From: Bacteroidales bacterium
Lineage (GTDB): Bacteria; Bacteroidota; Bacteroidia; Bacteroidales; UBA932
Length of the DNA stretch: 64,000 nucleotides
Reading direction: 5' to 3'
Assembly (NCBI GenBank): GCA_015060455.1
Contig: SUYM01000012.1
Location: 1-64,000, forward strand
Each line of letters begins with the position of its first letter. Positions within the stretch are counted from its first letter, which is position 1. Positions 1,215-51,203 of the stretch are shown here, piece by piece. The notes beneath the pieces were generated by a model, which was not told the DNA's origin, did no database searches, and was given only the letters and a program-made list of their open reading frames with translations. The translations under genes were made by a program, and so were the position numbers.

Positions 1215-2540
1215 TTATCTGAACAATCTTAATATATCGTTACCGAATGCGAGAATCATAAGACCGAATATAAGAATCATGCCTATTACCTGCATCACTT
1301 CAAGGAATTTGTCGCTTGGCTTGCGGCGGGTGATGATTTCATATAGGGTGAACACTATATGGCCGCCGTCAAGTGCTGGAATCGGAATCAGGTTCATGAC
1401 ACCCAGCATGATTGACAGCAGGGCTATGATGCTCAGGAAACTGTGCCAGTCCCATGTTGAAGGGAATATCTGACCGATGGCGATGAAACTTCCCACCGAT
1501 TTGTATGCTTCTGTGCTTGGTGTGAACACTAATTTCAGGTCCTGGATATATCCTCCGATGGTGGAGAATGTCTTCTTGAATCCGGCAGGGATGGCAGAAA
1601 GGAAATCATAATCCTTTGTTGCAAGTTCAGTAGGTGGAAGATACACTCCAAGACGTCCTGTGGTGTCAACCTGAATAGTCTGCATCAGAGTGTCGCAGCC
1701 TCTGAGAACGGCAACCTCGACTGCTCCTCCTGCGTTTGCTTCAAGCACAGGCCATGCGTCCTGGACAAACTCGACCCCTTGTCCTGCCACTGCAACTATT
1801 CTGTCTCCTTTGACAAGTCCGCCGTCGTAGTTGAGCGAACTCTCAGGTATGCTGTCAACCACAAACGGAACTGCCAGATCGAACATTCCCGGAGTCTTGA
1901 GGATGTCTCCTATGCGGGACTGGTCGATGTAGATGCTTACGGTGTCATTGTCCCGCAGCAGGGCAACCTTTTCCGCAGTCTGCCTCGCGAGATCTGCCTG
2001 AAGCATTCCGAAGTTCTCAGGCACATAATCATCCATGCTGATTATATGGTCCCCGTTGCGGAATCCCAGGTCGGAAGCCAGTTCATTGACATATATCTGC
2101 TTTCCATCATTGCTGATATATGCTTCTCCCCATATTCCGAGGATGCAGATATACATGATGATGGCGAAGATGAAGTTGAAAAGCACGCCTCCTGCCATCA
2201 CGAAAAGCCTCTGCCATGCCGGTTTTGAGCGGAACTCCCATGGCTGCGGCTCGCTTTTGAGTTGCTCGGTGTCCATCGACTCGTCGATCATTCCGCATAT
2301 CTTGCAGTATCCTCCCAGCGGCAGCCAGCCTATTCCGTATTCGGTCTCCCAATCGGCCGCCTTAGGGCAGAGTTTAAGGAACCATTTGCTCTTGGTGCTG
2401 AACAGTTTCACGCCCCAGGCATCGAAGAAAAGGTAGAACTTATCGACCCTAATGCCGAAAATCTTGGCGAAAATAAAATGTCCGAACTCATGAATCAGAA
2501 TGAGTATTCCTAATGCAAGTATCACTTGCAGGGTTTTCAT
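1215..2540 (-). CDS. rseP: RIP metalloprotease RseP (site-2 protease)
   Basis: HEFGH zinc motif near the N-terminus, PDZ region, C-terminal NLIPIPALDGGH motif. Start chosen at MKTLQVIL; ORF is open to 2573. Confidence 0.93.
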   Translation of the reverse strand: MKTLQVILALGILILIHEFGHFIFAKIFGIRVDKFYLFFDAWGVKLFSTKSKWFLKLCPKAADWETEYGIGWLPLGGYCKICGMIDESMDTEQLKSEPQPWEFRSKPAWQRLFVMAGGVLFNFIFAIIMYICILGIWGEAYISNDGKQIYVNELASDLGFRNGDHIISMDDYVPENFGMLQADLARQTAEKVALLRDNDTVSIYIDQSRIGDILKTPGMFDLAVPFVVDSIPESSLNYDGGLVKGDRIVAVAGQGVEFVQDAWPVLEANAGGAVEVAVLRGCDTLMQTIQVDTTGRLGVYLPPTELATKDYDFLSAIPAGFKKTFSTIGGYIQDLKLVFTPSTEAYKSVGSFIAIGQIFPSTWDWHSFLSIIALLSIMLGVMNLIPIPALDGGHIVFTLYEIITRRKPSDKFLEVMQVIGMILIFGLMILAFGNDILRLFR

Positions 2541-2553
2541 CAATATTATCATC

Positions 2554-3720
2554 TTATCTTGAAATTTTATCAATCAGTGTATTTGCTGTCGAATATGCAG
2601 CCGTGTTGGTTCCGAATATGCACCCGAGATCCGGTGTCTTTACGTATTCCACCTTCTCCATGGTCTCCCGCACCACGTCCGTGATGTCGTAGAATCCGAT
2701 TCTCTCTTTCAGGAAGGCCGCCACGGCCGCTTCATTTGCCGCGTTCATTATGCACGGCATGTTTCCGCCCTGTCGAAGAGCCTCGTAGGCAAGGTCGAGG
2801 GCAGGGAATTTCTGTCTGTCGGGCGCAAGGAAGGACAGGCTTCCAAGTTCGGCGAAATTGAGTTTTCTGCTGTCGAGCGGAAGTCTGTGCGGATAACTGA
2901 ATGCGAATTGGATGGCCTCTCTCATATCCGGATGTCCCATCTGTGCAATAACCGAGCCGTCCGCATACTCCACCATGGAGTGGATGATGGACTCGGGGTG
3001 TATCACCACGTCGATCCTGTCTCCCGGGGTGCCGAACAGCCAACGTGCCTCGATGATTTCCAGGCCCTTGTTCATCATGGTCGCGGAGTCGATGGTGATC
3101 TTGCTGCCCATGCTCCAGTTAGGGTGGTTGAGGGCCTGCTCGCGTGTCGCCTTGGCTATGTCATCACGGCTCCAGTTTCTGAATGGGCCTCCTGAGGCTG
3201 TCAGGTGTATTTTTTCTATGTCCGCGCCTGCCGAACCCATAAGGCATTGGAATATGGCCGAATGCTCGGAATCTACCGGGAGAATGCCGGCGTGATGCTT
3301 CGCCGCAAGGTCCATGACAATCTCTCCTGCCGCCACAAGGGTCTCCTTGTTTGCCAACGCTATCATCTTGCCCGCCTTGACTGCGGCGATGGTGGATTCC
3401 AGTCCGCTGAAACCGACCATTGAGGTCAGCACGATATCTATATTGTCGCTCTGTACCAGGTCGCAGACGGATTTCATGCCGGCGAACACTTTGACAAAAT
3501 GAGGTTTCAGCGCCTCCGCAGTCTGCCCATATCTGCCTTCATCGCATATCACGACATTGTTGGCGTCAAATTCGATGGCCTGCTGCACGAGCAAATCCCA
3601 ACTGCTGTTGGCTGTAAGCAGTTCAACTTCAAAGAGATCTCTGTGCTGGCGTATGACATCGAGCGCCTGCCTTCCGATTGAACCGGTGGATCCGAGTATC
3701 GCAATTCTTCTCTTTTCCAT
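2554..3720 (-). CDS. dxr: 1-deoxy-D-xylulose-5-phosphate reductoisomerase
   Basis: N-terminal ILGSTGSIGRQALDVI, NKETLVAAGE, VDSEHSAIFQCL and SASGGPFR-type motifs. Confidence 0.96.
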   Translation of the reverse strand: MEKRRIAILGSTGSIGRQALDVIRQHRDLFEVELLTANSSWDLLVQQAIEFDANNVVICDEGRYGQTAEALKPHFVKVFAGMKSVCDLVQSDNIDIVLTSMVGFSGLESTIAAVKAGKMIALANKETLVAAGEIVMDLAAKHHAGILPVDSEHSAIFQCLMGSAGADIEKIHLTASGGPFRNWSRDDIAKATREQALNHPNWSMGSKITIDSATMMNKGLEIIEARWLFGTPGDRIDVVIHPESIIHSMVEYADGSVIAQMGHPDMREAIQFAFSYPHRLPLDSRKLNFAELGSLSFLAPDRQKFPALDLAYEALRQGGNMPCIMNAANEAAVAAFLKERIGFYDITDVVRETMEKVEYVKTPDLGCIFGTNTAAYSTANTLIDKISR

Positions 3721-3725
3721 AGTCC

Positions 3726-4589
3726 TTAGAAACTTATGTATCTGGCAGGATCGACCGCGGTGCCCTTGTGCCAGAGTTCGAGGTGGAGGTGCGGACCGGT
3801 GGAAAGTTCTCCGGTGTTGCCTATGAGCGCAATCGGTGCACCGGCCGTAACTTTGTCGCCGGTCTTCTTGAGGAGGCTGCCGTTGTGCTTGTATATGGAG
3901 ATTATATCACCGTTGTGCTGGATTTCAACGGTGTTGCCGAACTCGTTGCTCCATCCTGCGTGTATGACTGTTCCGTCAAGTATGGCCTTCACGACAGTGC
4001 CCTGCGGTGCCGTGATGTCGAGGTAGGGATGGCTGACCTGGTTGTATCCTTGTGAAATGACTCCTTTCAGCGGGCTGAAAAAATGTACGCCCTCGATTGG
4101 GAGATCTCTTTTCTCCCTCTGCGCCGAGATTCCGAACTGCTCCTCCTGCTTCACTTTTTCACGCAGCAGAGAGTCTCTGCGCTGTATTTCCTCCATGTTC
4201 GCCTGTCTGGCTGAGGTCGGCATGCTGGCGTTGACCAGACTGTCTATCTTCACCGGGTCCATCCCCTCCATTACCCTTTTGAGGTTCTCGGAGTACAGTC
4301 CCCATTTATATATGACGGTTTCAAGTGAGTCGATGGTGATGGCATTCTGTATGGCCGCCTTTTTCGAGCGTGCGTCAGGATAGCCGGGGATGAATGTCCT
4401 CACCGGAGTATATGCTATTATGGAAAATATTGCTGCGCTGAGGGTCACAAGAATGGTGATGACTGCCACGAACATGCTTGTCCTTGTGAAATGGACTGTC
4501 CATAACTGCTTGTGCGACTGGTCATCGATGATGGCAAGCCTGAAATTGCTTCTCTTGTGTTCTTTGCCTGTCTTATGCTCTTTGCTCAT
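3726..4589 (-). CDS. M23 family metallopeptidase, membrane anchored
   Basis: N-terminal TM segment and C-terminal LytM signature (HPYLDI...GNTVEIQHNG...GPHLHLELW). Confidence 0.9.
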   Translation of the reverse strand: MSKEHKTGKEHKRSNFRLAIIDDQSHKQLWTVHFTRTSMFVAVITILVTLSAAIFSIIAYTPVRTFIPGYPDARSKKAAIQNAITIDSLETVIYKWGLYSENLKRVMEGMDPVKIDSLVNASMPTSARQANMEEIQRRDSLLREKVKQEEQFGISAQREKRDLPIEGVHFFSPLKGVISQGYNQVSHPYLDITAPQGTVVKAILDGTVIHAGWSNEFGNTVEIQHNGDIISIYKHNGSLLKKTGDKVTAGAPIALIGNTGELSTGPHLHLELWHKGTAVDPARYISF

Positions 4590-4603
4590 GTCTGCTTTTT
4601 TAC

Positions 4604-4611
4604 TAACTTTG
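4604..4611 (+). promoter_or_regulatory. Bacteroidetes -7 box (TAACTTTG) for ruvX
   Basis: TAnnTTTG match 8 nt upstream of the ruvX ATG. Confidence 0.5.
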
Positions 4612-4618
4612 CACCGAT

Positions 4619-5032
4619 ATGGACAGAATAATCGGCATTGATTACGGACGAAAAAGAGTGGGTGTTGCTGTCAGCGACCCTCTCGGGATTTTCGCGTCTG
4701 CCCTTGAAACGGTACATTCTGCAAAGATAATAGAATATCTCAAAAAATACGCTGAAAATGAGAATGTGGTGCGTTTTGTTGTGGGATATCCTATCAACAT
4801 GAATGGTGCTCCGTCAGAGGCGGCGAAGGATATTGATATATTCCTCAAACACCTTGCAAAGGCATTTCCGGACATTCCGGTGACATTGGAGGATGAACGG
4901 TTCACCTCCGTGCTTGCCCATCGTGCCATGATTGACGGCGGCATGAAGAAGCAGGACCGCATGAAGAAGGAGTCGGTCGATAAGATCAGCGCCGCCATCA
5001 TCCTTCAGTCCTACCTTGACAGAAACAGATAG
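4619..5032 (+). CDS. ruvX: Holliday junction resolvase RuvX/YqgF
   Basis: IGIDYGRKRVGVAVSDPLGIFA N-terminus and LEDERFTS motif. Confidence 0.93.
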   Translation: MDRIIGIDYGRKRVGVAVSDPLGIFASALETVHSAKIIEYLKKYAENENVVRFVVGYPINMNGAPSEAAKDIDIFLKHLAKAFPDIPVTLEDERFTSVLAHRAMIDGGMKKQDRMKKESVDKISAAIILQSYLDRNR

Positions 5033-5062
5033 TCATCCACCACAATCATCCTGAGCACCACA

Positions 5063-5090
5063 TGTCATCCTGAGCGAAGCGAAGGATCTG
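5063..5090. repeat. Dispersed palindromic element, CCT/AGG arm class
   Basis: tgtcATCCTgagcgaagcgaAGGATctg; same framework recurs in many intergenic sites of this window. Confidence 0.85.
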
Positions 5091-5118
5091 TAAAACTAAA
5101 AAGAACAAAAACGATACT

Positions 5119-5670
5119 ATGATACTACCGATTTATTTGTATGGAGCCGACGTGCTCCGAAACGAAAACAAAGACGCCGACCTTAACGACAAGGAAGCGA
5201 TCCTTAAACTCATTGAGGATATGAAGGAGACCCTCAAAGTCGCTGACGGATGCGGTCTTGCGGCCCCTCAGGTGGGCGTGAACCTTAATGTGGTCATTGT
5301 CGATGGTCGTGAACTCACCGAAACATACGACTATCTCCATGATTTCTTCCGCGTGATGATCAATCCTGTCGTGCTCGAAGAAAGCGAGGAAACATGTGAA
5401 TATTCGGAGGGCTGTCTGAGCGTGCCGGGAGTATATGCGGAGGTGCGCCGTCCTGCGAAGATAAAGGTCGAGTACTATAACGAGAATTTCGAGAAGGTCG
5501 TAGAGGAGTTTGACCGTTTCGGCTGCCGTATGGTGCAGCATGAACTTTCGCACCTGGAAGGCAACCTTTTTGTAGATAACATTTCGCCGATCCGCCGCAA
5601 GATGATCGCGCGCAAGTTGCAGGCGATCTCCAAAGGCTCGGTGCAGACACGATACAAATCGAAAAGATAG
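5119..5670 (+). CDS. def: Peptide deformylase
   Basis: GCGLAAPQVG, EGCLSVPG and QHELSHLEG motifs. Confidence 0.96.
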   Translation: MILPIYLYGADVLRNENKDADLNDKEAILKLIEDMKETLKVADGCGLAAPQVGVNLNVVIVDGRELTETYDYLHDFFRVMINPVVLEESEETCEYSEGCLSVPGVYAEVRRPAKIKVEYYNENFEKVVEEFDRFGCRMVQHELSHLEGNLFVDNISPIRRKMIARKLQAISKGSVQTRYKSKR

Positions 5671-5683
5671 GTTGTTGACTGTC

Positions 5684-5738
5684 ATTTCTTTCGCTACCGC
5701 TAAGCGGTAAGCCGATAGCGAGCGAAACGAGAAATCTA
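5684..5738. repeat. Dispersed palindromic element, TTC/GAA arm class with enlarged interior
   Basis: gtcATTTC...GAAATct flanking an internal taccgctaagcggta palindrome. Confidence 0.7.
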
Positions 5739-5751
5739 TAATCGTAAAACT

Positions 5752-7098
5752 ATGGGAGCATTTCACGCATACGACATCAGAGGAATCTACAATGTGGATT
5801 TCGACAAGGATACGGCCTACAAGGTGGGTTATTTCCTTCCTGAACTTCTTTCTGCCGACAAGGTGCTTGTGGGACGTGACGCCAGAGTATCTTCGCCGGA
5901 AATCCATGATTACCTTCTCAAAGGCATCACCGATGCAGGCGCAGACGTATATGATGTAGGACTGGCTACCACGCCTATGGTATATTTCGGCACTGCACAT
6001 TACGGCTTCAAGGCCTCTGTCCAGATCACCGCATCGCATAACCCTGCCGAATACAACGGCTTGAAGGTGTCTCGTGAAAATGCACTTCCGGTGGGTCTTG
6101 ATACGGGTCTGGGTCAGATAAAGGAGTGGATTGAGTCAGGACGCCCTTGCCCTGTGGCGGCAGTTCCGGGAAAGGTTCATCAGAAGGATATGAGGAAGGA
6201 TTATGTGGATTTCCTTCTTAAATATAAGGGGGACTGGTCAGACCTGAAAATCGCCATGGACGTATCCAACGGTATGGCTTCGCTCTTTGTTGATGATATT
6301 TTCGGTGATCAGCCGGCCTATATATATAAGGATATGGACGGGTCGTTCCCGAATCACGAGCCTAATCCGCTTGTGCCTGCAAATGTGGAGGACCTCAGGA
6401 AACTTGTGGCACAGACAAAGGCTGACATAGGAGTCATCTTTGACGGCGATGCGGACCGCGTGATGTTTGTGGATGAGAACAGCAGGTTCATATCTCCGGA
6501 CCTTATGATTGCGGTTCTCGGACATTATTTCCTTGAAGAAAGAGGGGAGAAGGGGTATATCCATCAGGACATCCGTTCCTCAAAGGCTGTGGGTGAATAT
6601 CTCGCTCCTATGGGCGGAATCATGAATACATGGCGTGTGGGTCGTGCCTATGCAGCCCTGAAACTGCGCGAACTTGACGGAGTGTATGGAGGCGAACTTG
6701 CAGGCCACTATTATTTCCGCGATTTCTTCTATTCCGACAGCGGACTCCTTGCCGCAATCCTCATTCTGAATGTGGTTGCAAAGAAAAAGGCGGAGGGCGT
6801 GTCTCTGAGCCAACTCATCGCACGCATTGAGAAATATCAGAACTCAGGCGAGATCAATTTCCGCCTCGACCGCAAGCAGGAAGCGATGGATGCCGTGCGC
6901 GACCATTTCATGAGTGCCGAACACTCGACTGCCTATATGGACTTCGACGGATACCGGGTGGAGTTCCCTGACTGGTGGTTCAATATCCGCCCTTCCAACA
7001 CAGAGCCATATCTTCGTTTTCTCTGCGAGGCAACAACAAAGGACCTTCTTGACGAGAAGGTTGCCAAGGCCCGGGAGATAATAAGCCGCTTTGCTTAA
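5752..7098 (+). CDS. Phosphomannomutase/phosphoglucomutase
   Basis: TASHNPAEYNG active site, DGDADR metal-binding loop, GEXXGH-type motif (GGELAGHYYF), RPSNTEP. Confidence 0.93.
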   Translation: MGAFHAYDIRGIYNVDFDKDTAYKVGYFLPELLSADKVLVGRDARVSSPEIHDYLLKGITDAGADVYDVGLATTPMVYFGTAHYGFKASVQITASHNPAEYNGLKVSRENALPVGLDTGLGQIKEWIESGRPCPVAAVPGKVHQKDMRKDYVDFLLKYKGDWSDLKIAMDVSNGMASLFVDDIFGDQPAYIYKDMDGSFPNHEPNPLVPANVEDLRKLVAQTKADIGVIFDGDADRVMFVDENSRFISPDLMIAVLGHYFLEERGEKGYIHQDIRSSKAVGEYLAPMGGIMNTWRVGRAYAALKLRELDGVYGGELAGHYYFRDFFYSDSGLLAAILILNVVAKKKAEGVSLSQLIARIEKYQNSGEINFRLDRKQEAMDAVRDHFMSAEHSTAYMDFDGYRVEFPDWWFNIRPSNTEPYLRFLCEATTKDLLDEKVAKAREIISRFA

Positions 7099-8728: not shown

Positions 8729-8806
8729 AATGATTATCCCTCATCAGTGCAGTAAAACAGGCTCTGCTTTCCCTGTGCGCTACATTGAAGGAACATTATC
8801 TGCACC
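8729..8806. repeat. 78-bp dispersed repeat, copy 1
   Basis: About 92% identical by eye to 45264-45341 (aatgattatcc...atcagtgcagtaaaacaggctc...gaacattatctgcacc). Confidence 0.85.
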
Positions 8807-10049: not shown

Positions 10050-10389
10050 ATTACAATCTATAATCTCATCCGGGATTTGGGTACGTATTTCCGGATGAAC
10101 ATGGGAAATTTCGCTGCTCATCCGGGTTTCGGGGGTTGTTTTCCGGATGAAAACGTAATATTGTGGAGGGCGTCAGCAAGGTGTGGCGTCAAGATGCACA
10201 GCGGATGTCTCCATTTGACCCCGTTCAGGTATGACGGCTCGGCATGACGATGAGAGGCATAGTGCAAAAACATAGAAAAACTGCACTATGTACCCTTCAA
10301 AACGAGGAGACCTGCAGCAGTTTTCATGTATTTTTGCTGCAGGTCTACCGGAACTGCTGCCGAATTATTAATTCGGGATACCACTGCAC
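10050..10389. repeat. Dispersed non-coding element R1, inverted relative to R2
   Basis: Reverse complement of 46175-46387 at ~98% identity, apart from two insertions (about 52 bp and 75 bp). Confidence 0.9.
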
Positions 10390-14688: not shown

Positions 14689-16488
14689 ATGAAAAGAATT
14701 TTCACTTTCTGTGCAGCCGTAGCAATGCTCGCTGCATGTGTGAAGGAGGCTCCAAAGACTCCTTCTGCCAATGGCATCACGACTCCGAATGAGGACGGTG
14801 CTCCTATGGCGATTCAAATGAAGTCAAATGTCGTGGCTTCGGTTGAGACAAAGGCTCAGGGTAGTGTTGACGCGTTTAACAAAAACCAGAAACTCTATAT
14901 CTATGGTATAGAGAGAGCAGCAGAAATGGATTATACAAGACTTGTGCGTCTTGTTGATAACGACAATGTCATCTATCCGCAGGCATTCCCTAATAATGAC
15001 GGACTTGTTGACCTGAAATATGCCGTTGAAGATGAAGACGATAATGTCGTGATGAAACCTTACTATTACGAGGGCAGCAAGACTTATGATTTCTATGGCT
15101 ACTATATAGATGATCTTGAATCTGACCCAAAGAAGGAAACTGATAGGATTTATGTTCCGATTCAGATTACCGGAGGTGAGGACATCTTGACTGCCAAGGC
15201 AAATCCACAGGTTGATGCTGCAGGAAAATTGGATTACAGATATGCTTATTCTGCATATGCTGCGCGTCGCGATGTTCAGCCAAAACTTACATTCCAGCAT
15301 AAACTTGTTCAGTTCACTTTCAAGGTTAAATCTTGTTATGAACCAGAGGAAGGTGATCCGGATCTTATTGTTGATAGTTTGTCAATTACGACTAGATACA
15401 AGGCAAATCTTCAGGTAGCACCAGTCGGTAAACTTGAAGATATCGACGGAGATACAAAGGAACTTTTCCTTTGTGAACTTGATGATAATGGTAAACTCGT
15501 AAAGTTGGACACACTAGAAGTACCTAAGAAGTCTTCTCAGAAGAACACTAGAGACCTTGGACAGAGCCTGATGGTTATTCCTAATGATACGTACGATCCT
15601 GAAACTGGTGACTTGTACGACTTTACACTTTATACGACATACGACGGAGTGTCAACACCTGTTTCCGGTCAGATAAAGTTCGATGACATTGCCATTAAAA
15701 TCCCCGGACAAAAACAGTTTACGGCCGGTTATTCTTACGAGGTTACAATCTTGGTTTATGGTCTTGAAAGGATTGAACTGACTGTTGCACTGACTCCTTG
15801 GAAAAAGGGTGGTAGCATAGAAATCGATACAGATGAGCCGCCTACAATCTGGGATGAGAATGGTAATGAAATTACGGGAAATGAACCTACAGAACCAGGT
15901 GCGAGCCATAAGATTACGGATAAGAGTGGAAATGAGATCACTATCTACAAGTCAGAGGGTGAGGAACCAGCAGTGGGTGACTTGGCTTCTCCGGACGGTT
16001 TGTATGAAATGCTGGATGGCACATCAATCTTGATTGAAGGAGGCGTAATCACTGAGATCAGACCGGCAAGTTATGTAATCACTGACAAGGACGGAAAGGA
16101 GATCACTATCTACCAGGCTGAGAGCGAGGCTCTTGCAGTAGGCGTATCTGCTTCTCCAAACGGAACGTATGTTATGGAGGATGGAAGCACAATCGTCATT
16201 ACTAAGGGCAAAATCGCCTCAATCACTCCTGCTCAGGGCGAAGAAGAGGAAGAAGAGGAAATTGTTCCGACTCCGACTCCAAGTTATGTAATCAATGACA
16301 AGGACGGAAATGAGATCACTATCTACCAGGCTGAGGGCGAGGCTCTTGCAGTAGGCGTATCTGCTTCTCCAGACGGAACATATGTTATGGAGGATGGAAG
16401 CACAATCGTCATTACTGATGGCAAAATCGCCGAAATCACTCCTGCTCAGGGCGAAGAAGAGGGTGGTCAGGACGAGCCACAAAACTAA
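14689..16488 (+). CDS. Fimbrillin-family lipoprotein with C-terminal tandem repeats
   Basis: Lipobox MLAACVK; YDFYGYYIDD...DILTAKA...LTFQHKLVQFTFKV; three ~60-70 aa C-terminal repeats. Confidence 0.78.
   Translation: MKRIFTFCAAVAMLAACVKEAPKTPSANGITTPNEDGAPMAIQMKSNVVASVETKAQGSVDAFNKNQKLYIYGIERAAEMDYTRLVRLVDNDNVIYPQAFPNNDGLVDLKYAVEDEDDNVVMKPYYYEGSKTYDFYGYYIDDLESDPKKETDRIYVPIQITGGEDILTAKANPQVDAAGKLDYRYAYSAYAARRDVQPKLTFQHKLVQFTFKVKSCYEPEEGDPDLIVDSLSITTRYKANLQVAPVGKLEDIDGDTKELFLCELDDNGKLVKLDTLEVPKKSSQKNTRDLGQSLMVIPNDTYDPETGDLYDFTLYTTYDGVSTPVSGQIKFDDIAIKIPGQKQFTAGYSYEVTILVYGLERIELTVALTPWKKGGSIEIDTDEPPTIWDENGNEITGNEPTEPGASHKITDKSGNEITIYKSEGEEPAVGDLASPDGLYEMLDGTSILIEGGVITEIRPASYVITDKDGKEITIYQAESEALAVGVSASPNGTYVMEDGSTIVITKGKIASITPAQGEEEEEEEIVPTPTPSYVINDKDGNEITIYQAEGEALAVGVSASPDGTYVMEDGSTIVITDGKIAEITPAQGEEEGGQDEPQN
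16069..16464 (+). repeat. 213-bp (71-aa period) in-frame tandem repeat, about 1.9 near-identical copies
   Basis: Unit starts at 16069 and 16282; a more divergent third copy lies at 15905-16068. Confidence 0.9.
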
Positions 16489-16509: not shown

Positions 16510-17706
16510 ATGAAAAGATTCAGTATCATATTTCTTTTTGCTCTTGCCGCTTTCGTGGCAGGATGTTCTAAGGATATAGAGACTGGGAAAAATCCGATCA
16601 ATCAGCGTCCTTCGTGGATCGATGACGAAACGCAACTTGTGCCTATCCAGTTCGGAACTTCCGGCATGGGCGTCAAGACCCGTTCAAGATTCGAAAACCT
16701 GGAGGCTATGTATGGTAAGACATTGGGTGTTGTAGGCGTGGATGTCAATCATGACTTGACAACCACCGGCTCGGATGTGTTCTGTCTTAATGACGAAATC
16801 GTCACTTGCGGAGATGTTGGAGGAAAAACTATGATCATTTTCGATGAGCCTCGATATTATCCGTATAGATCAGACTACAACTATTCCTTCTTCTCATATT
16901 ACAGGGGAGAAAATCCGGCGGCACTCTCTTATGACAGCGAGAGCATCAAACTTCCTTTTACGGGCAAGTATTGGGGATGTCAGGATATTGTCTGGGCTAG
17001 GACGGATGCGGACACCATGTTCGTCAAGAAATCTGCCGGAGAATATGTTCCGGCGTCCAGGGATGAAGCCGTCGGTTATTATAACGGCTACAATGCTTCC
17101 TATATGAGGTTTCTTGCGAAAAATGGCCTGTATGACACCAACCTTCCGACATTGTCATTTGAGCATGCTACAACCAATATCAGATTTGTTGCTGTGCTTG
17201 ATCCGACGGTAGTCACATCGTTTGACATGGTGCCTGTGATTACCGAAGTACGCCTTTCAGGAGATGAGGTCTATACGGGGGCATCCTTGAATGTTGTACA
17301 CAAGGATGCACTTCTCGCGGGTACATTCGATGTTTCCAACGATACGACAACTATTACCCTGCATGGGGGAGATGGCAAGACTGCGTTGGACATTACCCCT
17401 GATGAAGATGGTGAGGAACTTCTCGATGGATTTTTCCTTCAACCGATAAGTGAGAACAGTAAACTCCATCTTGAACTTGACCTTGAGTTCAGCAACGGTT
17501 CCACTACGACCGTGGAGACCGATATAAATAAGCATGTCAGGTTTGAAGCAGGATACTTCTACACTTACCAGGTGAAACTTTATAGGACTGTGGGAATTGA
17601 AATCGCAGTCAAGGAACTCGAGGAATGGCATAACGGCTTTGCCACTGATGTCAGCGATGATGTTCTTGGAACCGATGATACCCCTGTTCTCAATGGTGTT
17701 TCATAG
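16510..17706 (+). CDS. Fimbrillin-family lipoprotein
   Basis: Lipobox FVAGCSK; YSFFSYYRGE...DIVWART...LSFEHATTNIRFVAVL. Confidence 0.75.
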   Translation: MKRFSIIFLFALAAFVAGCSKDIETGKNPINQRPSWIDDETQLVPIQFGTSGMGVKTRSRFENLEAMYGKTLGVVGVDVNHDLTTTGSDVFCLNDEIVTCGDVGGKTMIIFDEPRYYPYRSDYNYSFFSYYRGENPAALSYDSESIKLPFTGKYWGCQDIVWARTDADTMFVKKSAGEYVPASRDEAVGYYNGYNASYMRFLAKNGLYDTNLPTLSFEHATTNIRFVAVLDPTVVTSFDMVPVITEVRLSGDEVYTGASLNVVHKDALLAGTFDVSNDTTTITLHGGDGKTALDITPDEDGEELLDGFFLQPISENSKLHLELDLEFSNGSTTTVETDINKHVRFEAGYFYTYQVKLYRTVGIEIAVKELEEWHNGFATDVSDDVLGTDDTPVLNGVS

Positions 17707-18297
17707 ATGAAGTCTCTATTTAATATTTTCAGGATCCCGGCAGTAATCATTGCTGCCGGGCTTATCCTGTTTTCTACCAAGGCTAATGCCCAACAGGTCG
17801 CATTGAAGACCAATGCTTTGATGTGGACCGTTCTCACTCCAAATATAGGGGCGGAGTTTGTACTGGGTGAGCGATATAGCCTTGACCTCTCCGTATTCGG
17901 ACATTATAATCCGTATGGAGTGGATTCTAAAATTCTTGCAGTGCAGCCCGAGTTCCGATACTGGTTTAACGGAAGACCGATGATCAGAGAGTTTGTCGGA
18001 GCCTCGACAATGGTTGCAAAATATGATTTTGATATAAAACGACAGGTTCATGACGGATATGCCGCTTCGGCAGGTGTGGTTGGAGGATATGTGTTCCTGT
18101 TGGGCAAAAAGAAGGATACAAAGTGGAGGTTGGAGTTGTGCGGAGGTATATCCCTGCTGTTTTTCAGTCAGAAACAGCATTATAGGGATGATAATTACGA
18201 TGACTATTTTATTGAGCAGGTTGCTGCTGCCAATTCGTGGGGATATAAGATTTTTCCCGCAAAATTAGGTGTGACATTTACTTATATAATAAAATAA
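17707..18297 (+). CDS. DUF3575 family outer-membrane protein
   Basis: QQVALKTNALMWTVLTPNIGAEFVLGERYSLDLSVFGHYNPY...VQPEFRYWFNGRP. Confidence 0.85.
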   Translation: MKSLFNIFRIPAVIIAAGLILFSTKANAQQVALKTNALMWTVLTPNIGAEFVLGERYSLDLSVFGHYNPYGVDSKILAVQPEFRYWFNGRPMIREFVGASTMVAKYDFDIKRQVHDGYAASAGVVGGYVFLLGKKKDTKWRLELCGGISLLFFSQKQHYRDDNYDDYFIEQVAAANSWGYKIFPAKLGVTFTYIIK

Positions 18298-30794: not shown

Positions 30795-30866
30795 GGCCCT
30801 GTAGTTCAACGGATAGAATGGAAGTTTCCTAAACTTTAGATAGCAGTTCGATTCTGCTCGGGGCTA
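30795..30866 (+). tRNA. tRNA-Arg (anticodon CCT)
   Basis: Acceptor GGCCCTG/CGGGGCT, anticodon arm GAAGT-TTCCTAA-ACTTT, T-arm AGCAG-TTCGATT-CTGCT; encoded CA follows. Confidence 0.93.
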
Positions 30867-30869
30867 CAG

Positions 30870-41811: not shown

Positions 41812-41822
41812 ATTGTTTTTTA

Positions 41823-41911
41823 GATTTCTCCACTCGCTTCGCTCGGTCGAAATGACAGTTAATGGTCGCTCGGTCGCTTTCTGTCATCTCGAGCGAAGTC
41901 GAGAGATCTGA
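41823..41911. repeat. Dispersed palindromic elements (TTC/GAA inverted copy and CTC/GAG copy)
   Basis: gatttctccactcgcttcgctcggtcgaaatgaca and tgtcATCTCgagcgaagtcgaGAGATctg. Confidence 0.8.
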
Positions 41912-43463: not shown

Positions 43464-43580
43464 TAGATTTCTCCACTCGCTTCGCTCGGTCGAAATGACA
43501 ATTAATGGTCGCTCGGTTGAAATGACAGTTAATGGTCGCTCGGTCGCTTCCTGTCATCTCGAGCGAAGTCGAGAGATCTG
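43464..43580. repeat. Dispersed palindromic element cluster (TTC/GAA and CTC/GAG classes)
   Basis: Near duplicate of 41823-41911 with an extra internal ggtcgctcggt unit. Confidence 0.8.
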
Positions 43581-45263: not shown

Positions 45264-45341
45264 AATGATTATCCGTTATCAGTGCAGTAAAACAGGCTCC
45301 ACTATCCCTGTGCGCTACATCGAAGGAACATTATCTGCACC
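45264..45341. repeat. 78-bp dispersed repeat, copy 2
   Basis: About 92% identical to 8729-8806. Confidence 0.85.
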
Positions 45342-46134: not shown

Positions 46135-46182
46135 CACTGCACCCTTTGCAGATAATCATTATTATCCGCAAAGGGTGCAGTG
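46135..46182. repeat. 48-bp near-perfect palindrome
   Basis: CACTGCACCCTTTGCAGATAAT-CATT-ATTATCCGCAAAGGGTGCAGTG, one mismatch. Confidence 0.85.
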
Positions 46183-46387
46183 GTATCCCGAATTAATAAC
46201 TCGGCAGCAGTTCCGGTAGATTTGCACTATGCCTCTCATCGTCATGCCGAGCCGTCATACCTGAACAGGGTCAAATGGAGACATCCGCTGTGCATCTCGA
46301 CGCCACACCTTGCTGACGCCCTCCACAATATTACGTTTTCATCCGGAAAACAACCCCCGAAACCCGGATGAGATTATAGATTGTAAT
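46175..46387. repeat. Dispersed non-coding element R2, inverted relative to R1
   Basis: Reverse complement matches 10050-10389 minus its two insertions; about 3 mismatches seen in ~213 bp. Confidence 0.9.
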
Positions 46388-47065: not shown

Positions 47066-47071
47066 CACCCG

Positions 47072-47147
47072 GTTATTAGTTTTAGTGTTATTAATTATGT
47101 GGTTAGTATGAGGTGCCCCACGCGAGTGGCGCAACTCATTTTTTTAT
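47072..47147 (+). ncRNA. Candidate small RNA between an orphan promoter and an intrinsic terminator
   Basis: Promoter at 47058-47065 and a strong rho-independent terminator at 47108-47145. Confidence 0.35.
47108..47145 (+). terminator. Plus-strand intrinsic terminator
   Basis: ATGAGGTGCCCCAC-GCGA-GTGGCGCAACTCAT stem (12 of 14 paired) followed by T7. Confidence 0.75.
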
Positions 47148-49234
47148 ATTGTCACCATCTCTTGGTATTTGACCGGAATTTGTTGATTGTCTGGCGACTG
47201 AATGTCTGCATATTCTTCTGTGGTTTTCTTGAAGTATTCCTTGGCGGCTTCCTTCATTTTTGTGAAGTGCTCCTGACATCGCTCTTCTCCCCAACAATCG
47301 TTGTATTGATAAATCATGTCTGATTTCAAAGAATCTATGAAGCCATGACTCCTCTTGTCAAGATAAGAAGCCCGTTTTTCTTTGTAGGACTTATTGTTGT
47401 AACTGGAATTGTCTTGGCTTGATATCAGGGCGAGGTTGCCGAAATCGTCGCAATTTGAAATTTTCTCCTCATCAAACTTTGGCGTTTGCGGGGAGATGTG
47501 TTCTATCGAGTTTTTTGAGTTGATCCGATATTCTTTCCATCTTTGATTTCTGTCGTCCTCCCGGGTTTTCCAGAGTATATACTCCATCTTATAGAAAAGG
47601 TAGTGTGCGAAGCCGCAGCCTTTGGATTCGCATATCCTTTCGTGGAAACAGTTATAATAATCTTCTGCATTACCTGGCTTCAAACCTTCTGACATCACAG
47701 TGTATGTTCTGATGATCATATCGTCTTCATGCCTTTGGCAAAGAAGGTTGTTATCCAATTCCTGAAGGTATTTGAGCAAGGTGCCCGGGTCATCTTCGGT
47801 AAGAGCCTTGTATATGAAAGGACAGATCCAGTGCTCATAAATACGAGGCTGAGAAAAATAGAGCATGCTCTGCAATTGAGACATGTCGTTTATATTTTCC
47901 GAGAGGTCTCTTGTGACAGATAGGGTGCCTTGCCCTGAGTTTTCGTAGATTCTGAGTTTCTTTATAGCCAGGACGGGTTCACGAGAGTGCTCTGTAGAAA
48001 CAAATTTGACTACATGTCTGTCAAAGGCATATCTGACTTTCCACAATAGGTGTAAGAATTTCACTGAGGCTTTCTTGTTTTGATTGTTTTCCAGCCAGTT
48101 TATAAACGGAGAGAATATATGCAGAAGTTTCTTCTCGTTGAAAATATTGATGTCGCATCTGTCGCCACAGCCATATATGTTGATTTTGTCGCTTACCAGG
48201 AAGATGCGCAATGTATAGAGCAGAAGCATAGGGAATGATGCTATGCTCCTGACGGTTTCACCATATTTGTCAGGGCGGTTATTTTCTGCACACTCCGGTC
48301 TGTAATTCTTTATGATTTCTAACAGGTCTTCGGAACGAGTTATGTCGTTGACTTCGTTATGAACTCTCTCATTTATAAATTGCTCCAGAAATCTGTCATC
48401 AAAGTCCAAATCACTTTCCCCTCCGCCGTTTTTGGCTTTCAGCAGGTCTTTCCATGTCAGTCTGGGGTCCTGGTGGTATATGTTGGATTCAATATAGCCG
48501 GACATGTCTGAGCAACTGTCCCAGAGTTGTCCATATCTTATGAGCATGTCTTCGTTGTCATCAATATCTCGTCTTACCGTCTTTAAGATCCGTGACTTCA
48601 ATATATCTGTCTGCGACAGTTGTTGTCCTCTGCCGTTAATCAACTCGAATATTTTATTCAGGTCTGCATCGTCGGGTATCCGAGTCTCGATCAGGACTAC
48701 ATTTGTCAAAAGATATTCTGCGAAATCCCGAAGACTGTTCTTTCTGTCGTCAAGTTCTAAAAATGACCGGATATGTCCTGCCGCGTCAATCAAATTTCTC
48801 AGATCCGGAATGTCGTCATGTAAAGTTGAATCAAGACCAAGAGTGCTGATGAACTCTGATACTTTTGGTCTGATTGAAAAACAAATTCTTTCCCTGCCGG
48901 ATTTCTTGCAAAAATCTGTCAGGATGTCTGGAGCGTTATCTGCCAGGAGACACCGTAGTGTATTGCAAGTGAGCCATAAGGTTGTGAATCTCTGCTGCCC
49001 GTCTATCAGGTCAAATGTTCTGTCTGCTTCTCTGTTCGGAGCCGTCATGATTCCTCCAAGGAAGTATTTTTGTTCCTTGGTCTCAAACGCATTGTATATG
49101 TCTTCCAGCAGCGTGTTGACTTGAGCCTGTTTCCAGACGTAAAGTCTCTGATATATAGGGACGTTAAAATATTTGTCCTCTTTTACAATGTCCGTCAATA
49201 TAATGTATGCTGACCTGTATTCAGAATTGTTCAT
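47144..49234 (-). CDS. DUF262 + DUF1524 (GmrSD-like, HNH-type) protein
   Basis: FDLIDGQQRFTTL (DUF262) and C-terminal IEHISPQTPKF...DDFGNLALISSQDNSSYNNKSYKEKR (DUF1524/HNH). ORF is open to 49282. Confidence 0.85.
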   Translation of the reverse strand: MNNSEYRSAYIILTDIVKEDKYFNVPIYQRLYVWKQAQVNTLLEDIYNAFETKEQKYFLGGIMTAPNREADRTFDLIDGQQRFTTLWLTCNTLRCLLADNAPDILTDFCKKSGRERICFSIRPKVSEFISTLGLDSTLHDDIPDLRNLIDAAGHIRSFLELDDRKNSLRDFAEYLLTNVVLIETRIPDDADLNKIFELINGRGQQLSQTDILKSRILKTVRRDIDDNEDMLIRYGQLWDSCSDMSGYIESNIYHQDPRLTWKDLLKAKNGGGESDLDFDDRFLEQFINERVHNEVNDITRSEDLLEIIKNYRPECAENNRPDKYGETVRSIASFPMLLLYTLRIFLVSDKINIYGCGDRCDINIFNEKKLLHIFSPFINWLENNQNKKASVKFLHLLWKVRYAFDRHVVKFVSTEHSREPVLAIKKLRIYENSGQGTLSVTRDLSENINDMSQLQSMLYFSQPRIYEHWICPFIYKALTEDDPGTLLKYLQELDNNLLCQRHEDDMIIRTYTVMSEGLKPGNAEDYYNCFHERICESKGCGFAHYLFYKMEYILWKTREDDRNQRWKEYRINSKNSIEHISPQTPKFDEEKISNCDDFGNLALISSQDNSSYNNKSYKEKRASYLDKRSHGFIDSLKSDMIYQYNDCWGEERCQEHFTKMKEAAKEYFKKTTEEYADIQSPDNQQIPVKYQEMVTI
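47146..47182. repeat. 37-bp direct repeat, copy 1 (covers the 3' end of the DUF262/DUF1524 gene)
   Basis: atattgtcaccatctcttggtatttgaccggaatttg, identical to 50754-50790. Confidence 0.95.
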
Positions 49235-50678
49235 AAGCACTTTCTGCCCATTTAAGTTTAACGTCTCTAAGGTCTCCGTCATAATTTTTTCCGAAGTATT
49301 TTTTGCATGCTTCTATATAGCAGTTTATTGGCCCGTTCTCAGGCTTTTTGTGCTCATCTTTCAGAGTGAGGGAAGATATGTAGGCGAACACTTCCTGTGG
49401 CTCGTAACTGATCTGGATCAGATCCAGGATATTGTTCTCGCGCGTGAAATTCCTCATAGCCACCTCCTTTAAGTAATAAGTGTTCAGACGGATTGTTCCG
49501 ATTATATAGTCAGTATATAATGCGAAGCGATAAAGTTCCCGACTGCCGAACTTATCGTAGTAAGCCATCACCATTATGATGAAAAAGTCGGTAATATATT
49601 TGCTGGACCGGGAATCAATATATAGTTTTTGGTAAAGTTCCCTGACTTTGCGCACGGTCCTGTCTGATGTTTCCTTCTCAAACAGGTTCTGTGCTATCGT
49701 GTGGTAAGTGTCAAAGAAAGCGAAGACACTAACTCCTTTATATAGGGGCTGTCTTATGCTGAACAGATGACTTTTATCCTCGCTGCTGTCGTCTTCCGGT
49801 ATCTCCTGCTTGTTTGAAAGGGAGTGCGAGTGTGTGAATTTTCTATGACTTCCAGCAGGATAGTAGCAGATGGTGTTGCCGTGATTCTTTAACGGATTGT
49901 CAGCAAATTCCTCCATGGCGGAATTATAGTCGGACCTGTTCTCAAAGTCCTTGCCTTTCCATCTGCGGATTCTCCATAATGCCATGTCAACAAGATTGTC
50001 CAGATAATCTTCCGGGGAATTACGGAAGAGATTACTCCTGTTCGTCTGAATGTCTTGCCACCTTCTCGCGCAGTCGATCCTGAGGGCATTGTCGTTCTGT
50101 ATTGCCCTCAGATGCACGGCCTTCATTACATCTACGGCAGCCGGCTGTATGCCCCGATTGTTTTGGGAATCAAAGAAGGTGAATGCGTCATCCTCGCTTT
50201 CTGTCATAATGACGCAAAATTTCAGATGGTTGAAAATGTCGGATATGTTGACAGACGAGGGTTTACCACCCAATTGAGACTTTGCGTATTCGAGGTTGCT
50301 GTGGATGTTTTGCCTGGACAAATGATGGCTGAATGAAAAGTTTAACTGCTGACTGTATTTTATCAAAGCAGAGTCGTCACCATTTAATATGTAGTCAATA
50401 AGCAGGATGGAGGTGAGACGCTGCTGACCGTCAACTATGTTCATGACTTTGTTTGACTCATTTTTATGTATAATGAGAGTGCCCATGTAGTACCAGCAAC
50501 CAGGGACGGAGCGGGATTCCAGAAATTCTCTCCAGTCATCCAGAAGTTGTCCGATTTTCTTGTTGCTCCAGACATATGGACGTTGGTATGGCGGAATCTG
50601 GATTGTATAACCCTTATCCTTGATTAGTTGGAAAAGTGTTTCGTAGGAAGGGTTTTCAACATGAATGTAATCGGTCAT
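49221..50678 (-). CDS. DUF262 domain protein
   Basis: YQRPYVWSNKKIGQLLDDW and MNIVDGQQRLTSILL; overlaps the start of the downstream DUF262 gene. Confidence 0.85.
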   Translation of the reverse strand: MTDYIHVENPSYETLFQLIKDKGYTIQIPPYQRPYVWSNKKIGQLLDDWREFLESRSVPGCWYYMGTLIIHKNESNKVMNIVDGQQRLTSILLIDYILNGDDSALIKYSQQLNFSFSHHLSRQNIHSNLEYAKSQLGGKPSSVNISDIFNHLKFCVIMTESEDDAFTFFDSQNNRGIQPAAVDVMKAVHLRAIQNDNALRIDCARRWQDIQTNRSNLFRNSPEDYLDNLVDMALWRIRRWKGKDFENRSDYNSAMEEFADNPLKNHGNTICYYPAGSHRKFTHSHSLSNKQEIPEDDSSEDKSHLFSIRQPLYKGVSVFAFFDTYHTIAQNLFEKETSDRTVRKVRELYQKLYIDSRSSKYITDFFIIMVMAYYDKFGSRELYRFALYTDYIIGTIRLNTYYLKEVAMRNFTRENNILDLIQISYEPQEVFAYISSLTLKDEHKKPENGPINCYIEACKKYFGKNYDGDLRDVKLKWAESAYEQF

Positions 50679-50704
50679 TGTAGCGGTTATTTTATGTCAG
50701 AGTG

Positions 50705-50712
50705 CAAAGATA
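50705..50712 (-). promoter_or_regulatory. -7 box (TATCTTTG) of the DUF262 pair
   Basis: On the minus strand TTG-N19-TATCTTTG, matching the Bacteroidetes consensus. Confidence 0.6.
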
Positions 50713-50753
50713 TACATTTTGTAAATGACCGCAACCTGTACCGTACAATGCTA

Positions 50754-50790
50754 ATATTGTCACCATCTCTTGGTATTTGACCGGAATTTG
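50754..50790. repeat. 37-bp direct repeat, copy 2 (upstream of the ridA-like gene)
   Basis: Identical to 47146-47182. Confidence 0.95.
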
Positions 50791-50791
50791 C

Positions 50792-50799
50792 TAAATTTG
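50792..50799 (+). promoter_or_regulatory. -7 box (TAAATTTG) of the ridA-like gene
   Basis: TAnnTTTG with TTG at 50769-50771, inside the direct repeat. Confidence 0.5.
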
Positions 50800-50828: not shown

Positions 50829-51203
50829 ATGAAACGAGTAATAGCAACCCCTGATGCACCCAAGGCGGTGGGCCCATATTCACAGGCCATTGAAGTGAAC
50901 GGAACACTTTATATTTCGGGTCAGATTCCGGTAAATCCGGCTGACGGAAAGGTCCAGGAGGATATTGTCGCTGCGGCTCACCAGTCGTTGAAGAACATCG
51001 GCGCCATTCTCAAAGAGGCGGGCATGACATACGACAATGTGGTGAAGACAACCGTCCTTCTTGCTGACATCGCTGATTTCAAGGCTGTCAATGAGGTTTA
51101 TGCTGAGTATTTTACAGGTGACAAGCCTGCACGTGCCTGCTATCAGGCAGCAGCCCTTCCTCTTGGAGTGAAGGTTGAGATTGAGGCGATCGCAGTGAAA
51201 TAA
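50829..51203 (+). CDS. RidA family (YjgF/YER057c/UK114) protein
   Basis: IATPDAPKAVGPYSQAIEVNGTLYISGQIP...ARACYQAAALPLGVKVEIEAIA. Confidence 0.95.
   Translation: MKRVIATPDAPKAVGPYSQAIEVNGTLYISGQIPVNPADGKVQEDIVAAAHQSLKNIGAILKEAGMTYDNVVKTTVLLADIADFKAVNEVYAEYFTGDKPARACYQAAALPLGVKVEIEAIAVK

Follow-up and report, generated by a model that had tools for sequence, protein, structure and literature searches.

A TgvAB-like gene pair between two copies of a 37-bp direct repeat in an uncultured Bacteroidales genome, probably inserted with duplication of its target

The stretch of DNA analysed here, hereafter the window, comprised positions 1 to 64,000 (64,000 nucleotides, forward strand) of contig SUYM01000012.1 from assembly GCA_015060455.1, a Bacteroidales bacterium of the lineage UBA932, and carried two adjacent DUF262 genes, resembling the TgvAB restriction system, between perfect copies of a 37-bp direct repeat. 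A recent insertion of the TgvAB-like pair, with duplication of a 37-bp target, was the best explanation for this arrangement and probably the correct one. The support for insertion was good but came by analogy with related loci, short of proof at the window locus, where we infer that the direction of the event was likewise insertion.

Results and Discussion

The repeat and its two junctions

The repeat, ATATTGTCACCATCTCTTGGTATTTGACCGGAATTTG, occupied positions 47146-47182 (left copy) and 50754-50790 (right copy) on the plus strand with zero mismatches and a spacing of 3608 bp, as an earlier note on this DNA had claimed. It was not extendable, as the bases beyond either end differed immediately between the copies, and it occurred exactly twice in the whole 2.5-Mb assembly, with no other match. 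Allowing as many as 3 mismatches revealed no third match in the window (0 expected from 100 shuffles), and a scan of the remaining window with flanks of 500 bp and a gap of 3.5 kb, as at the repeat locus, yielded a longest repeat of 14 bp over 526 positions. These observations confirmed that the 37-bp repeat is real and non-random, and the perfect identity of the copies suggested that the event was recent.

The roles that the earlier note had assigned to the two copies were both borne out, the second by a consensus match. Read on the minus strand, the left copy encoded QIPVKYQEMVTI, the final 12 residues (701-712) of the 712-aa DUF262/DUF1524 protein (TgvB-like), whose stop codon lay at 47144-47146 with a single stop base within the repeat. 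The repeat-coded tail represented non-family sequence, as seven of the seven aligned TgvB homologues stopped near residue 690 of the TgvB-like protein. Immediately to the left stood a small RNA (sRNA)-like element with a terminator hairpin (47071-47145, plus strand); its terminator T-tract ended at 47145 and the left copy began at the next base. The right copy contained the -33 TTG (50770-50772) of a predicted Bacteroidetes-type promoter for ridA (50770-50799, plus strand; TTG-N19-TAAATTTG, a consensus match only) and ended in the promoter spacer, with the -7 box TAAATTTG (50792-50799) just past the repeat end. The ridA gene itself, identified by its Ribonuc_L-PSP domain profile, followed in the right flank at 50829-51203 on the plus strand. 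A terminator T-tract abutting the left outer flank and a -7 box at N19 spacing abutting the right one are expected for a single target that was split.

The unique segment between the copies (47183-50753, 3571 bp) had a GC content of 42.5%, compared with about 49% in the flanks, a contrast that supported the insertion. It carried a predicted promoter for tgvAB at 50705-50734 on the minus strand (TTG-N19-TATCTTTG), also a consensus match only. Among the proteins encoded between the repeat copies there was no recombinase or transposase domain, in agreement with the earlier note, and no terminal inverted repeats were found at the segment ends. A DDE or composite transposon was rejected on these two grounds, and a transposase duplication of fixed length with terminal inverted repeats was not seen.

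TgvAB loci of related genomes

We compared 15 TgvAB loci, comprising eight from the genus (the window included), five from the order and two on plasmids, by scoring the best ungapped repeat between the left and right flanks of each, with 210 mismatched left-right pairings as the control. The window scored 37, genome G256 scored 21 and genome G021 scored 19; the remaining loci scored 8-11, and the control pairings reached a maximum of 12. In G256 the 21-bp repeat ACGGCACGAAGATGCCAAAGA was present in exactly two copies in the genome, one on each side of the pair. In G021 the pair lay between AbiEi and AbiEii (names that come from one search plus reading of the sequence), with a repeat of 22 bp and one mismatch, the left copy reading AAAGAACTGGCAGAATATGAAT and the right copy AAAGAACTTGCAGAATATGAAT. 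The earlier note had suggested searching other DUF262 loci for the 37-mer; what G256 and G021 had were tight repeats of their own, with no motif in common with it.

In G258 the homologous AbiE region crossed the position of the G021 junction without a break, at 83% identity and with a single copy of AAAGAACTTGCAGAATATGAAT, and the event in G021 could be polarised as an insertion because alignments of further AbiE loci from the genus likewise spanned the junction. Both AbiE partners stayed readable in G021, as the duplicated 22-bp stretch held the AbiEi stop region along with a start codon. The occupied and empty sites corresponded to L134 (G021:C60) 1387-6671 and L153 (G258:C31) 1501-2380, respectively.

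Probable insertion with target duplication

The anatomy of the window locus was that of a clean insertion, as the earlier note had proposed, and insertion with target duplication was supported by analogy with the G256 and G021 loci; it is the empty site of the window locus itself that was missing from this picture. The module would have entered the short gap between the sRNA terminator and the ridA promoter, and the duplication would result if a staggered break, or else a strand switch during replication, had opened the target there and the gaps had been filled in at either side. In this reading the -33 box of ridA would be kept by the right copy, the left copy would have become the coding sequence for the last 12 TgvB residues, and the module would bring its own predicted promoter. 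As the module is without a recombinase, its insertion and any rare loss by recombination between the copies would depend on host or trans functions. The earlier note had made the same point, and that dependence was retained; a site-specific recombinase acting in trans was not favoured, as the repeats were without a common motif and the 37-mer without a dyad.

Several observations weighed against this explanation. The duplications (21-37 bp) were shorter than the ~100 bp of some restriction-modification insertions, and five of the eight genus TgvAB loci, as well as all seven of the others, had no repeat above background; these 12 loci indicated that the scar is not universal or is lost with age. 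The genome assembly was fragmented and 83% complete, and the junctions were known from the assembly alone. No empty site of the window locus was found, as the 37-mer was absent from the 400 genomes of the genus that were searched with the ridA region, and an exact search of GTDB contigs and IMG/VR for a 31-bp core of the 37-mer gave no matches. The single-copy site whose existence the earlier note had proposed to check therefore failed to appear, and the implied adjacency of sRNA and ridA was not seen in relatives.

The ridA neighborhood accounted for the last of these points. In relatives with 97-100% identical RidA, ridA came after guaA-bipA-yceD-tRNA-Arg wherever the contig reached far enough, with a few such relatives carrying extra genes in between. 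In the window, the tRNA-Arg gene was located at 30795-30867, 20 kb from ridA. As the ridA of relatives follows tRNA-Arg, the sRNA-ridA neighborhood was a derived arrangement of the window lineage, whose empty form would be confined to other strains of the species; the sRNA-ridA order that excision would restore, according to the earlier note, had no counterpart in these relatives. The genes of the interval 30795-50828, some 20 kb in all, belonged mostly to the core (doxX, ATP synthase, serA/serC, pyrB/pyrI and others), and, judged from the gene order, this separation of tRNA-Arg and ridA, neighbours in most relatives, is apparently a lineage-specific rearrangement.

Other insertions were also found upstream of ridA. 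Those in G372 and G021 had no repeat of at least 12 bp. In G281 (L146, G281:C113), a 0.8-kb toxin-antitoxin insert at 17261-18095 was flanked on each side by a 26-bp copy of the tRNA-Arg 3' end and encoded a Phd-like antitoxin and a ParE/RelE-like toxin, both read from sequence, with no recombinase. This insert does look like the use of an integrase, despite being without a recombinase.

Alternative origins of the repeat

The 37-mer could instead be the att core of a tyrosine or serine recombinase acting in trans, in which case the module would be either a satellite that has no recombinase or what is left of a larger element. A length of 37 bp is ordinary for att identity blocks, and the genome does encode tyrosine recombinases; however, a profile search of the genome found two such genes only, about the number expected for XerC/XerD, which they presumably are. 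The dyad symmetry of the 37-mer was no greater than that of shuffles (the best 11-bp arms matched at 6 of 11 positions, as is typical of shuffles), no likeness to dif was found in it, and there was no tRNA at the insertion site. The repeats of the window, G256 and G021 (37, 21 and 22 bp) had no motif in common and were of different lengths, which speaks against a single att site. A trans-acting recombinase remained a rival because the G281 insert, bounded by copies of a tRNA 3' end, a classical integrase target, resembles integrase use, and we consider it an unlikely source of the window repeat. A tyrosine-recombinase integrative element or dif-type module (integrative mobile element exploiting Xer, IMEX) was rejected, as there was no recombinase between the repeats and there were no dyad arms.

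Two further possibilities were improbable. In the first, the 37-mer would be a native part of the tgvB 3' end that was copied beside ridA, as a gene-duplication remnant or by template switching, to become part of the promoter afterwards. The left copy was open and in frame with TgvB, as such an origin would have it, but the coded tail extended past the end of all the aligned homologues, no more tgvB homology was found beside the right copy, and the right copy gave a -33 box at the correct spacing, which is rare for a random fragment. In the second, a long shot, the TgvAB modules of the genus would be mobile units, either self-sufficient or aided by the host, that generate target duplications of 20-40 bp on insertion, conceivably entering via staggered nicks made by the His-Me nuclease of TgvB; a defence nuclease would then serve in a homing-like role. 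An assembly artefact, in which a strain mixture or traversal of a repeat node joined the pair to both flanks, would suit an assembly of 51 contigs but is scarcely credible, as 37 bp is shorter than an ordinary sequencing read, analogous repeats were present in independent assemblies of other species, and gene ends and promoters made biological sense at both junctions.

Identity of the gene pair

The two genes of the module both lay on the minus strand. The first encoded a TgvA-like protein of 485 aa (49221-50678) with GmrSD_N (DUF262) and DUF7834 domains, and the second encoded the TgvB-like protein of 712 aa (47144-49282) with GmrSD_N (DUF262) and GmrSD_C (DUF1524, His-Me nuclease) domains; the reading frames overlapped by 62 bp. 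The N-terminal DUF262 domain (PF03235) was detected in the two proteins with E values of 1e-31 and 3e-28. PF07510 (DUF1524, GmrSD_C) was detected in the TgvB-like protein only (E 4e-16), the TgvA-like protein having DUF7834 instead, a domain also found in the TgvA-like protein of an E. coli plasmid. The E. coli and G425 pairs had the same Pfam layout as the window pair, and the solved structures matched by profile were SspE and other DUF262 chains.

The invariant alignment columns were Q32 R33, D83-R87 and F169/N173 in the TgvA-like protein, and Q45 R46, D94-R98, F212/N216, E594 H595 P598, N616 and N625 in the TgvB-like protein. Both proteins had thus kept the QR, DGQQR and FxxxN motifs, and the second had EHxxP and two asparagines intact. 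The aligned homologues were only about 23-34% identical to the window pair, and no close orthologues of the pair were found in the genus and order searches or in a related-locus search with both proteins. From its domains and motifs, the pair is a divergent, new member of the TgvAB/GmrSD type, a putative two-protein modification-dependent (type IV) restriction module.

For V. cholerae TgvAB, the only system for which this is known, both genes are needed and phages with modified cytosine are restricted (PMC11411939). The window pair resembled that system in its two adjacent overlapping genes, with DUF262 in both and DUF1524 only in the second, and in the QR, DGQQR, FxxxN and His-Me residues. 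Both DUF262 domains would sense a modified cytosine (e.g. glucosyl-hydroxymethyl cytosine) with nucleoside triphosphate, and the His-Me domain of TgvB would cut the phage DNA. BrxU and SspE have the same DUF262-DUF1524 domains but are single-chain proteins, whereas the window system has two proteins. Plasmid homologues had type I restriction genes as neighbours, lying between hsdS and hsdR on the E. coli plasmid and downstream of hsdS on a Vibrio aerogenes plasmid, whereas the window pair stood alone between the sRNA and ridA. The window TgvB also differed from its homologues by a C-terminal extension of ~22 residues, the final 12 of which were those coded by the repeat.

Comparison with known modes of insertion

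Restriction-modification genes have been described to insert with target duplications of variable length, some of ~100 bp, in the passages cited here (PMC3031569, PMC3874152, PMC1643837); the long duplications were reported by Nobusato et al. 2000 and Furuta et al. 2010, as cited in PMC3031569 and PMC3874152. The loci studied here were similar to those accounts in that a recombinase-less restriction unit was bounded by direct repeats of variable length and sequence, and in that the repeat was single-copy in an empty relative, which was shown for G021 versus G258 and not for the window locus. They differed from the cases in the cited passages in that the module was of type IV and belonged to an uncultured genus of Bacteroidales. 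Their repeats were also 21-37 bp long as opposed to ~100 bp, and they therefore represented a variant of restriction-gene insertion and not a plain member. Restriction genes are known to move in this mode, and the insertion scar is a variant of it in which the duplication is short.

In Haloquadratum walsbyi, accessory DNA has also been reported to be bounded by short direct repeats, of which the other strain has one copy; the repeats there are mostly of 4-20 bp, and the events were mostly read as repeat-mediated deletions (PMC3119063). Unlike in that case, the interrupted AbiE operon indicated that at least one event here was an insertion.

These loci bear on how defence genes that have neither a recombinase nor a transposase pass from one genome to another. 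Three TgvAB loci in a single genus with repeat scars, one of them with an empty site in a sister species, make target length, choice and polarity readable, so that restriction-gene insertion with target duplication, an old idea, becomes testable in an uncultured gut lineage. Such an insertion can spare both neighbours, as a promoter box would have been rebuilt in the window and overlapping stop and start codons were rebuilt in the AbiE case.

The sRNA-like element and other repeats of the window

The sRNA-like element of the left flank was present in 338 of the 400 genus genomes, often in two or more copies, and a search of Rfam gave no match to it. Besides the window copy at 47071-47145 (plus strand), a second copy lay at G000:C43:67546-67621. 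The element had a nearly invariant 40-nt 5' part, GGTTATTAGTTTTAGTGTTATTAATTATGTGGTTAGTATGAG, with a mini open reading frame (ATG TGG TTA GTA TGA), and a terminator hairpin whose stem varied between copies; in the window, a -33/-7 promoter lay upstream. The element was rejected as an integration hotspot, as its copies were found in varied contexts and none of those fetched adjoined a homologue of the pair.

The other long repeats of the window were either tandem repeats of surface-protein genes or intergenic repeats resembling repetitive extragenic palindromic (REP) elements. Near-identical intergenic inverted repeats at 10050-10389 and 46175-46387, 36 kb apart, shared exact blocks of 74, 46, 30, 25, 25 and 20 bp, and a shorter direct-repeat family linked 8743-8806 with 45278-45341. 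REP-like intergenic repeats of the TCTCGACTTCGCTCGA / TGTCATCCTGAGCG family, which occurred several times in the window, were located at 41821-41910 and 43464-43580. A 213-bp tandem repeat at 16099-16462 lay within a predicted surface-protein gene (14689-16488).

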